Origin: Terriglobia bacterium
GTDB taxonomy: Bacteria > Acidobacteriota > Terriglobia > Bryobacterales > Bryobacteraceae
Length of the DNA: 64,000 nt
NCBI GenBank assembly: GCA_021325235.1
Contig: JAJPHN010000057.1
Span: 1-64,000, forward strand
Reading direction: 5' to 3'
Below are positions 59,298 through 61,277 of this stretch, in pieces. The notes beneath the pieces are model-generated. The model saw nothing but the letters and a program-made list of their open reading frames with translations, did no database searches and was not told the DNA's origin. Within the stretch, counting starts at the first letter, position 1; each line of letters begins with the position of its first letter. Both the position numbers and the translations under genes were made by a program.

Positions 59298-59705
59298 GTG
59301 AAAACCGAAGAACCGAGCGTCAAGCCTGCGGAGAATCCGGAGATTCCGGACAAGCTCTACTTCCGGATAGGGGAAGTGGCGCGCCTGGCGGGGATCAAAC
59401 CGTACGTTCTGCGCTTCTGGGAGACCGAATTTTCGGGCCTGGGGCCGAAGAAGTCGGGCACCGGACACAGATTGTACCGGCGCAAAGATGTGGAGCTGGT
59501 GCTCGAGATCAAGCGGCTGTTGTACGACCGGCGCTACACGATCGAGGGTGCGCGCAAAGTTCTGGAATCGAAGCCAAAGCGGGAACCGGTGCGGGCGCCG
59601 GTACCGCAGAAGCAGGTGGAGATGTTTTCGCCGGGAGCGTTCACGTTTCATCGCGAACTGCGCAAAGAGCTGACCGAAATTCTGGCGCTGCTCGAAGACG
59701 AATAG
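59298..59705 (+). CDS. MerR-family transcriptional regulator
   Basis: A 135-residue DNA-binding protein. The winged helix-turn-helix is YFRIGEVARLAGIKPYVLRF, WETEFSGLGPKKSGTGHRLY, RRKDVELVLEIKRLLYDRRY and TIEGARKVLESKP, the classic MerR N-terminal domain. The remaining 50 residues have a Pro-rich spacer and a helix (FHRELRKELTEILALLEDE) that could form the dimer coiled coil. No metal-binding Cys are present, so it is not a metal sensor. The start is GTG at 59298. It converges on the TIR gene 8 bases away. Similar short MerR proteins in Acidobacteria often lie next to ihfA or pheT, not seen here. Confidence 0.85.
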   Translation: MKTEEPSVKPAENPEIPDKLYFRIGEVARLAGIKPYVLRFWETEFSGLGPKKSGTGHRLYRRKDVELVLEIKRLLYDRRYTIEGARKVLESKPKREPVRAPVPQKQVEMFSPGAFTFHRELRKELTEILALLEDE

Positions 59706-59712
59706 AGCGCGG

Positions 59713-60282
59713 TCATTTTTTCGGCTGCGCACGCGCGGCGGTCTGGTGCCACATGGCCTGAATCAGCTCGCGGGTGCCGCGCTCGCAATCCGGGAACAGG
59801 TCGACGTGCTGTACCTTTTGCGAGATTTCGACCGGAAGCGAGCAGTCGTCGAGGCGCACCGGGATGAAGTAGATCTCGTCGAGCGGCACGCGGAGAGCGG
59901 CGTCGAGGGCATAGGCGAGCTCGCGCTGAAAGTGGCCACGCTTGGAGACGGAACGGCGCGAAAAGCAGGCGACGAAAAAATCGCAGAGATCGATGGCGCG
60001 CTCGATGGCACGAGGCCAGTTCTGGCCGGGCAGAATTTTCTCCTCGTCGAGCCAGGGTTCAAAGCCGGCTTTGCGTAGCGCGGCACTGAGGCGCTTGGCG
60101 CGGGTGCGGTCTTCGTAGGCATAGGCGATGAAGACGGGAATGCGACCATTGGGCTCGAAGGTGAGCTGATTGCGCGGGTTGAGCTTGAAGTGGCCGAGAC
60201 CGTCGATTTCGATGCGGGACCCGTTGCGCAGATAGGTTTCGATCAGCTGGACGAGGGCACGGGCGCGGACACTACGGTTCAC
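59713..60282 (-). CDS. HU-hairpin/TIR-domain fusion protein
   Basis: A 189-residue protein. Residues about 8-37 (ALVQLIETYLRNGSRIEIDG, LGHFKLNPR) match the second helix and beta-hairpin part of HU/IHF DNA-binding proteins, without the first half. Residues about 48-165 are a TIR domain (RIPVFIAYAYEDRTRAKRLS, WLDEEKILPGQNWPRAIERA, ACFSRRSVSKRGHFQREL). Glu121 in FQREL lies where NAD-cleaving TIR domains have the catalytic Glu. The GTG at 60282 has AAAGGA about 10 bases upstream. It overlaps by 11 bases a 56-residue gene that encodes the missing helical HU half. Such TIR proteins may be NADases in defence or signalling; here that is inference. Confidence 0.82.
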   Translation of the reverse strand: MNRSVRARALVQLIETYLRNGSRIEIDGLGHFKLNPRNQLTFEPNGRIPVFIAYAYEDRTRAKRLSAALRKAGFEPWLDEEKILPGQNWPRAIERAIDLCDFFVACFSRRSVSKRGHFQRELAYALDAALRVPLDEIYFIPVRLDDCSLPVEISQKVQHVDLFPDCERGTRELIQAMWHQTAARAQPKK

Positions 60283-60442
60283 GTGGCGCTTTCCTTTTAT
60301 TGGGGGCCGGGTTGGGGAGCGGCCTGGGCGTTTTCAGGTCCTTGAGCAGGCGGTGCACGAGCGCGTCGACGGCGTCGGCTGCTTTGCCGCGGGAGCGATG
60401 CGATTGTTTGGCCAGGAGCTGGGCCAGATCGTGCTTGTTCAT
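60272..60442 (-). CDS. 56-residue HU-like helical half protein
   Basis: A small gene missed by length filters. It reads MNKHDLAQLLAKQSHRSRGK then AADAVDALVHRLLKDLKTPR and ends PNPAPNKRKAPREP. The M-N-K-x-D-L-A-x-L-L-A start, the helix-turn-helix spacing and the A-D-A-V-D-A-L-V-H helix match the N-terminal half of HU/IHF proteins, but there is no beta-arm. The basic tail may contact DNA. The ATG overlaps the stop of the upstream gene as ATGA, and its stop lies 11 bases inside the TIR gene, so three genes are translationally coupled. It may pair with the HU hairpin half in the TIR protein. Confidence 0.68.
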   Translation of the reverse strand: MNKHDLAQLLAKQSHRSRGKAADAVDALVHRLLKDLKTPRPLPNPAPNKRKAPREP

Positions 60443-61179
60443 CGGTTTGAAGGTAGTCCGGAGGAGTGCGCGAGGGAGGCCGCGAGGAGCGCGGGATCGG
60501 GCGTATCTGGTTGCAGAGAATCGGTTTCGGCAGGTGAAAAATCGGGCGAATCGATGTGATCGAGGGCGGCTGAAAATTCGAACTCAGGGACGTCGTTTGC
60601 GGCTTCGTCTTCGGTTTGGCGCTGGCCCTTTACTTCCTCGAGCTCAGCTTTGAGGCGGGCGGCGTAGTTGGAGAGGCGGCGTTCCTGCAGCGCGAGATTG
60701 CGGAACTGCTTTTCGTATTTGAGATAGATTTCGAGGCGGAGCAGATTGGGGTCGCACTCGGAGGCGAGCTCGTGGTGGCCTTTGGCGAAGAGAGCGGCTT
60801 CGAGGCAGGGGATGCGGAGGAGGCGCCACCAGGTATCGGCGATGAGCTGCACGAGAGCGCACTCGTGTTCGCCGACGGGTTTCCAGAAGTGGAAATAGTG
60901 CGTGAGGTGCTGTTGGTAGCGGGCGCGATCGTCGGTGGGAAGCAGGACGGTGCGGCCGGTGAGGGCGGTTTTCAAGGCGTTTTGGGACGAAATGGCCTTG
61001 CCGGCTTCGGTGCGGGGTCCGCCTGCTCGGGCTTGGGAAGGATGCGTTGTCCGATTTCGGTCGCTGACGCTTCCCGGTTCCGTGTCGAGGGTGCGCGAGT
61101 TTTCGGCTTTGCGCGCGTTCTTGATGGCTTCTTTGCGGGCTTTGCGCTCGGCGGCGCGACGGATCTGACGAGCTGTCAT
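60439..61179 (-). CDS. Uncharacterised acidobacterial protein, first gene of the TIR cassette
   Basis: A 246-residue protein of unknown function. The N-terminus is very basic (MTARQIRRAAERKARKEAIK, NARKAENS). A conserved-looking core follows: GKAISSQNALKTALTGRTVL, LPTDDRARYQQHLTHYFHFW, KPVGEHECALVQLIADTWWR and LLRIPCLEAALFAKGHHELA. A predicted coiled coil (FRNLALQERRLSNYAARLKA) comes next. The C-terminus is acidic and probably disordered. The S-x-N-A-L-K-x-x-L-T-G-R block recurs in multicopy hypothetical proteins of Acidobacteria and Planctomycetes. The ATG at 61179 was chosen because sequence further upstream in the frame is antisense to the permease gene. The stop overlaps the HU-like small gene. 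Confidence 0.7.
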   Translation of the reverse strand: MTARQIRRAAERKARKEAIKNARKAENSRTLDTEPGSVSDRNRTTHPSQARAGGPRTEAGKAISSQNALKTALTGRTVLLPTDDRARYQQHLTHYFHFWKPVGEHECALVQLIADTWWRLLRIPCLEAALFAKGHHELASECDPNLLRLEIYLKYEKQFRNLALQERRLSNYAARLKAELEEVKGQRQTEDEAANDVPEFEFSAALDHIDSPDFSPAETDSLQPDTPDPALLAASLAHSSGLPSNR

Positions 61180-61277
61180 GCCACCGGTTTTAGCGCGGGC
61201 AAAAGAGAAGAAAAGAAGAAGATGCGTGGAAGTGCTTGAAAAGCGGGAGACGATTTTAGTACGGAACGTGTGAACGC

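Follow-up and report, generated by a model that had tools for sequence, protein, structure and literature searches.

In the 64,000-nucleotide stretch of DNA analyzed here (the window), three leftward open reading frames (ORFs), P1, A and B, follow one another closely, with overlaps of 4 nt between P1 and A and 11 nt between A and B (Table 1). The coordinates and overlaps of these ORFs, as described in an earlier note on this DNA, were reproduced, and the domain calls made there, namely, an HU-like protein for A and an HU piece combined with a TIR domain for B, were upheld by profile matches.

Table 1. Features of the locus in the window
Feature	Position	Strand	Description
Upstream element CGTTCACA (consensus CRKTCACR)	61269-61276	-	Just past the stop codon of the FtsX-like permease gene; upstream of P1
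CAAGCACTT, match to the second, weaker element CAA-N4-TT	61230-61238	-	Upstream of P1
P1	60439-61179	-	246 aa; between the upstream elements and A; outside the conserved unit
A	60272-60442	-	56 aa; putative armless HU-like protein: alpha1-alpha2 and a Pro/Lys/Arg-rich tail; no hairpin motif
B	59713-60282	-	189 aa; GTG start; predicted HU stub (about residues 1-46) and TIR domain (50-173); candidate catalytic-type Glu at 121

A search for B in 150 related genomes yielded matches at E ≤ 0.001 in 89 of them, and 60 match places, nearly all among the strongest, were fetched with their surroundings. One of these (L095), in which the TIR domain is joined to a kinase-like part, was rejected as an ortholog, leaving 59 orthologous loci. 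In all 59, A is a separate ORF located directly upstream of B on the same strand; the two genes overlap in 47 loci and are separated by a gap of 0-37 nt in the remaining 12. Start codons were set by rule throughout, and wrongly placed starts are the probable cause of the two largest overlaps (38 and 110 nt). Among the matches listed (150 each for A and B), 131 genomes contain both genes, which are adjacent by coordinates in 130; in the sole non-adjacent case (G192), both matches lie near contig ends. No A-B fusion was seen in the 59 loci and the 130 adjacent pairs, with the in-frame cases read: the two genes share a frame in 8 of the 130 pairs, and in these eight as well as in L045 the two are separated by a stop codon (9/9). 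The possibility, considered in the earlier note, that the small gene is a frameshift product of an intact HU-TIR gene was therefore rejected, A being a separate ORF in every relative and the in-frame cases being interrupted without exception. Across 237 genomes of a single family, which we take to be Bryobacteraceae (Acidobacteriota), 180 carry both genes, 2 carry A only (G019 and G280), 5 carry B only and 50 carry neither when A is counted at E ≤ 1e-8 (Fisher p = 6e-43 for co-occurrence); at E ≤ 1e-10, the respective numbers are 177, 1, 8 and 51. Together, A and B form a genuine module of two genes.

P1, by comparison, is a passenger, a chance neighbor that lies outside this unit. No P1 match was found directly before A in any of the 59 relatives (only 378 nt upstream of A are available in L096, and at least 800 nt in the others); hence, of the three-gene order for which the earlier note proposed a search in other genomes, the A-B part recurs in all 59 loci and the complete P1-A-B arrangement in none. 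The single P1 match among the 60 fetched loci is in L088, 2.1 kb upstream of B. P1 is, furthermore, one member of a multi-copy family: this genome contains 16 matches, and each of 16 relatives from the same genus contains 6-36. Given the lack of a match before A and the multiple copies, we discarded the proposal that P1 is a third component of the system. Its description as a basic protein does not hold either: the whole protein has a net charge of 0, to which the first 100 residues contribute +12 and the others -12. P1 showed no match in Pfam, NCBIfam or PADLOC at E ≤ 1 (for PADLOC, the same is true of A) and none in PHROG at E ≤ 0.001. In L037, L038, L040 and L043, the FtsX-like permease gene is located upstream of A without P1. 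Because both upstream elements in the window precede P1, which occupies the position where A would be expected to start, the operon appears to have acquired P1 by insertion. Of the 13 P1 places listed for G000, four lie no more than 250 nt from the start of a contig, as expected of repeats.

The first of these upstream elements, CRKTCACR, was detected between -165 and -95 from A in 35 of the 59 loci, compared with 0 of 177 other long ORFs from the same loci (the starts of which were set by the longest ORF and are possibly off) and 0 of 20 uvrC genes; with a looser pattern, the counts are 39/59, 1/177 and 0/20, respectively. CRKTCACR is a gene-specific upstream element of A. In the L037-L096 loci, it is found about 130 nt upstream of A. 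The second element, CAA-N4-TT, on either strand between -110 and -45 from A, is present in 29 of the 59 loci vs 8 of the 177 control ORFs. The upstream regions of A are richer in A+T than those of the controls (GC 0.52 vs 0.60), but in shuffled A regions, CAA-N4-TT occurred 5 times on average and 11 times at most. This element, which to our eye resembles the IHF core site, lies between CRKTCACR and a -10-like box, CTGCTAg, near -21 from A. Two other interpretations were tried and rejected: CRKTCACR does not qualify as an ECF-type promoter, a second conserved box being absent within 40 nt downstream, and no known RNA element is apparent upstream of A, where Rfam gave only one tRNA in 14 loci.

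The HU origin of A is apparent at the level of the family. Taken alone, A of the window is a weak match to PF00216 (HU), over residues 1-38 (E = 0.0044; 17.7 bits, with a gathering cut-off of 22.4). However, the profile of the 60 A proteins (the window and the 59 orthologous loci) matches HU-beta (2o97_B) in register over chain residues 1-61 with E = 1.1e-9, and A of L055 exceeds the PF00216 cut-off (28.8 vs 22.4 bits). At E ≤ 0.1, PF00216 is matched by 54 of the 60 A proteins, and PF18175 (HU-CCDC81_bac_2) by 48, with the best E-value of 4.8e-9 (for A of L055, 20.8 bits, with a curated cut-off of 35). Judging from these alignments, A retains the predicted N-terminal dimer-forming half of HU. 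The earlier note described A as the helical half of HU only, and A and B together as a split HU with complementary halves. The former description is accurate for the window and the latter for its genus: a glycine-turn hairpin motif is missing in A of the window and of all eight genus relatives read (L037-L043 and L045), as well as in L062, L068 and L090 (12/60). Neither can be generalized, and the complementary split finds no support as the ancestral design, because 48 of the 60 A proteins contain the hairpin motif by a loose pattern (L060 is doubtful), and 45 of the 59 relatives do so by a stricter one. Complementary HU halves look like a derived state, with the direction of change suggested by this distribution.

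The TIR assignment of B is strong: B of the window matches TIR_2 over residues 50-173 with E = 3.6e-27 and 95.7 bits, against a gathering cut-off of 28, and all 60 B members match this model at E ≤ 0.01. The preceding stub scores best to PF18175, with 25 of the 60 members matching at E ≤ 0.01; in the window, residues 11-46 align with a part of this model (E = 2.4e-5; 24.6 bits, below the curated cut-off of 35). By alignment, the stub corresponds to alpha2 and the beta part of HU, without alpha1, the arms or alpha3, and a short turn occupies the position of the HU arm. The HU parts of A and B are homologous from alpha2 onward (hhalign probability 94.7, E = 5.9e-8, 41 columns). The residues invariant in all 60 aligned B proteins are G30, a glycine in the HU stub, and F51, Y54, E57, D58, W77, D79, G86, Q87, W89, F118, E121, P133, P141 and R143. 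The invariance of E121, the Glu of FQxE, bears out the candidate catalytic Glu pointed out in the earlier note. This residue aligns with Glu 77 of chain 8ifk_A. For the Maribacter TIR-APAZ NADase, PMC10474274 describes E77A as the catalytic mutant. The TIR domain of B thus keeps a catalytic-type Glu, which would correspond to the residue mutated there if, as is likely, 8ifk_A and the Maribacter protein are numbered alike. Comparison of P1, A and B with the PADLOC models gave 13 models matching B, mainly over the TIR part, and none of the three proteins matched a known defense system beyond the TIR domain. No full-length match to Thoeris ThsB was found in B; the partial matches (E = 0.006-0.007) cover model positions 4-102 of 319 and 103-152 of 234.

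In the earlier note, the two HU pieces were interpreted as a DNA-binding module that places the TIR domain on DNA. Both pieces are indeed HU-derived, and A is basic, with a mean net charge of +7.3 and a net positive charge of the last 20 residues in 82% of the 60 proteins. However, the alignments indicate that both A and B lack the DNA-binding arms and the last helix (alpha3) of HU: in A, as in B, there is a short turn at the arm position and alpha3 is missing, whereas the canonical HU proteins of L124 and L125, from other genomes, contain both. HU-style DNA binding is unlikely because of these differences. In addition, the best HU model for B represents the CCDC81-like family, which has been proposed to mediate protein contacts. 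We accordingly rate a DNA-binding module as quite improbable.

Within the family, B was detected at E ≤ 1e-40 in 185 of the 237 genomes, as a single match in 182 and as two matches in three (G049, G082 and G224); among the 148 family genomes with a completeness of 90% or more and a contamination of 5% or less, 121 encode B. For A, matches at E ≤ 0.001 are found in 200 of the 237 genomes, where the weak ones may be canonical HU. In the window's genus, B is present in 11 of 17 genomes, and G006 and G009 (95 and 96% complete) have neither A nor B; the pair is thus dispensable. Among 396 genomes across the phylum, nine match the B profile at E ≤ 1e-30, three from the family and six from outside it, the latter by the TIR part only. 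One A-B pair was seen outside the family, a complete one in another family of the same class (L081 in G129), which could be either a transfer or a misplaced contig. Matches to A in G797 and G859, from other families of the class, were rejected as canonical HU with arms although their E-values reach 1e-13, so that weak A matches elsewhere may be canonical HU as well. The nearest TIR relatives outside the family, in 13 loci (L031-L036 and L100-L106), lie in open frames of 218-572 aa, and neither an A-like HU part nor one like the B stub was found in these frames.

This distribution bears on the possibility that A and B are an antitoxin and a toxin, in which case A would neutralize B, an NAD-consuming TIR toxin, and loss of A would kill or arrest the cell. 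The small gene A comes first and overlaps B in most loci; A is basic and the first 45 residues of B are near neutral (net charge -0.4); and, at E ≤ 1e-8, just two genomes have A only and five have B only. Toxin-antitoxin pairs, however, are usually mobile and patchily distributed, whereas B is found in the large majority of the family, nearly always as one copy. A phage or plasmid origin of B was also rejected: there was no match in phage records, and the matches in five plasmid records were partial and of the TIR type, none covering at least 80% of the query. We therefore consider an antitoxin-toxin pair unlikely, albeit less so than the DNA-binding module.

Both genes are under purifying selection. 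In the three pairs formed by L108, L109 and L110, A has a dN/dS of 0.20-0.25 and B one of 0.12-0.13. Comparison of the window with L037 or L038 gives 0.13-0.27 for each of the two genes, synonymous sites being close to saturation. The A-B distance correlation is 0.64 in the 26 loci with a usable UvrC, and the partial correlation given UvrC is 0.62, a value reached in none of 1000 permutations; when the window's genus is left out (21 loci), the partial correlation is 0.61. The B-UvrC distance correlation is only 0.28, inside the permutation range (highest value, 0.32), and such poor tracking of UvrC by B counts against simple vertical inheritance. Over the 60 loci, A correlates similarly with the HU part and the TIR part of B (0.63 and 0.61, respectively), and covariation accordingly does not single out the HU stub. 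The A-B covariation is consistent with an association of the HU pieces of A and B, and it could also reflect shared rates or joint inheritance instead of contact.

A and B might, alternatively, be co-transcribed and otherwise independent, with A a leftover HU paralog and B a stand-alone TIR protein. The loss of the hairpin motif from A in 12 of the 60 proteins is compatible with such an arrangement, but the near-strict co-occurrence of the two genes and their covariation speak against it, as do the lack of any observed fusion and the single separation, at contig edges. Independence of A and B appears very unlikely, somewhat more so than the DNA-binding module.

The explanation that we prefer, with about equal chances of being right or wrong, is that A, as an armless-HU partner, docks on the HU stub of B and controls a TIR enzyme; A-B binding, cleavage of NAD, the control logic and the trigger are what we infer. 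A and B would then be two subunits of a TIR signaling module that is nearly restricted to one bacterial family. A would have retained the body through which HU dimerizes (alpha1, alpha2 and, in most cases, the hairpin) but neither the last helix nor the arms that grip DNA, and B would contain a second, shorter HU piece, without alpha1, immediately before the TIR domain. A would be made first, with its translation probably coupled to that of B, and would pair with the HU stub of B such that the TIR domains are held or positioned; a signal of stress or invasion, or else some change in A, could then cause assembly of the TIR domains and consumption of NAD. A would have shed the hairpin in the window's genus, so that the two chains carry complementary HU parts. 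Several observations count against this explanation: B retains the stub where A lacks the hairpin, which blurs the picture of the interface; A covaries with the TIR part of B as well as with its HU part; the pair is dispensable, given the nearly complete genomes without it; and it is present in most of a family, mostly as a single copy, unlike most defense systems.

A more speculative scheme, which we view as a long shot, involves the nucleoid: armless A might compete for, or cap, subunits of the chromosomal HU/IHF, with the balance between them holding or firing the TIR domain of B, for example, when a phage displaces nucleoid proteins, and the IHF-like promoter element would close the loop. 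If this scheme were true, most of a family would have kept a TIR system responsive to the state of a DNA-packaging protein.

Several known systems resemble parts of the A-B module. Among solved structures, the best matches to the B profile include 8j8h_B (E = 2.7e-8) and 8ifk_A (E = 7e-8), both named only TIR domain-containing protein and presumably of the TIR-APAZ kind, and 8fex_A, which is named TIR-APAZ (E = 2.4e-6). Short prokaryotic Argonaute TIR-APAZ systems (SPARTA) are similar to the pair also in consisting of two chains with the TIR domain on one subunit, and the FQxE Glu of B aligns with a Glu of 8ifk_A as described above. In contrast to SPARTA, no Argonaute or APAZ part was seen in P1, A or B in profile searches; here, an HU stub would serve as the adaptor, with an armless HU as its partner. 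With the CCDC81-like HU families (PF18175 and PF18289), the module shares the PF18175 matches of A and of the B stub. CCDC81-type proteins contain two HU domains in one chain, whereas here the HU domains are on two chains, one of which is fused to TIR. Compared with HU/IHF (PF00216), A follows HU residues 1-61 in register but, by alignment, is without arms and alpha3, and B is without alpha1 in addition. Predicted TIR effectors fused to death-like adaptor domains are described in PMC8195603; in the case of A and B, the adaptor would instead be HU-derived and the partner is a separate, fixed upstream gene. In the open-licence literature, we found no paper that links TIR to HU or to CCDC81, or a TIR domain to Solibacter or Bryobacter.

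Bacterial TIR domains are mostly known from patchily distributed defense genes. Here, in contrast, a TIR protein is found, mostly as a single copy, in 185 of 237 genomes of a family, alongside an HU-derived partner of its own and a gene-specific upstream element. Should A control B, this would be a new way of restraining a TIR enzyme, and HU would have been converted from a DNA-binding to a protein-binding part.

Downstream of B, uvrC is located on the same strand, with its start within 3.7 kb of the start region of B, in at least 28 of the 59 loci, a lower bound given that L039 covered only 1.0 kb beyond B. Together with the wide and mostly single-copy presence of B in the family, this proximity could point to a non-enzymatic TIR scaffold in a housekeeping pathway, perhaps, DNA repair. 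However, the catalytic-type Glu is invariant, and in the four loci that were read base by base (L048, L050, L055 and L082), a convergent gene for a secreted-type TPR protein separates B from uvrC. With this gene intervening, an operon of the pair with uvrC was rejected for these loci, and a scaffold role strikes us as improbable, on a par with the DNA-binding module. A gene for a MerR-type regulator next to the pair had no match beside the pair in the 60 fetched loci. In the window, this gene (named by eye) lies at 59298-59705, convergent with B, and is followed by further genes, uvrC not being among them.
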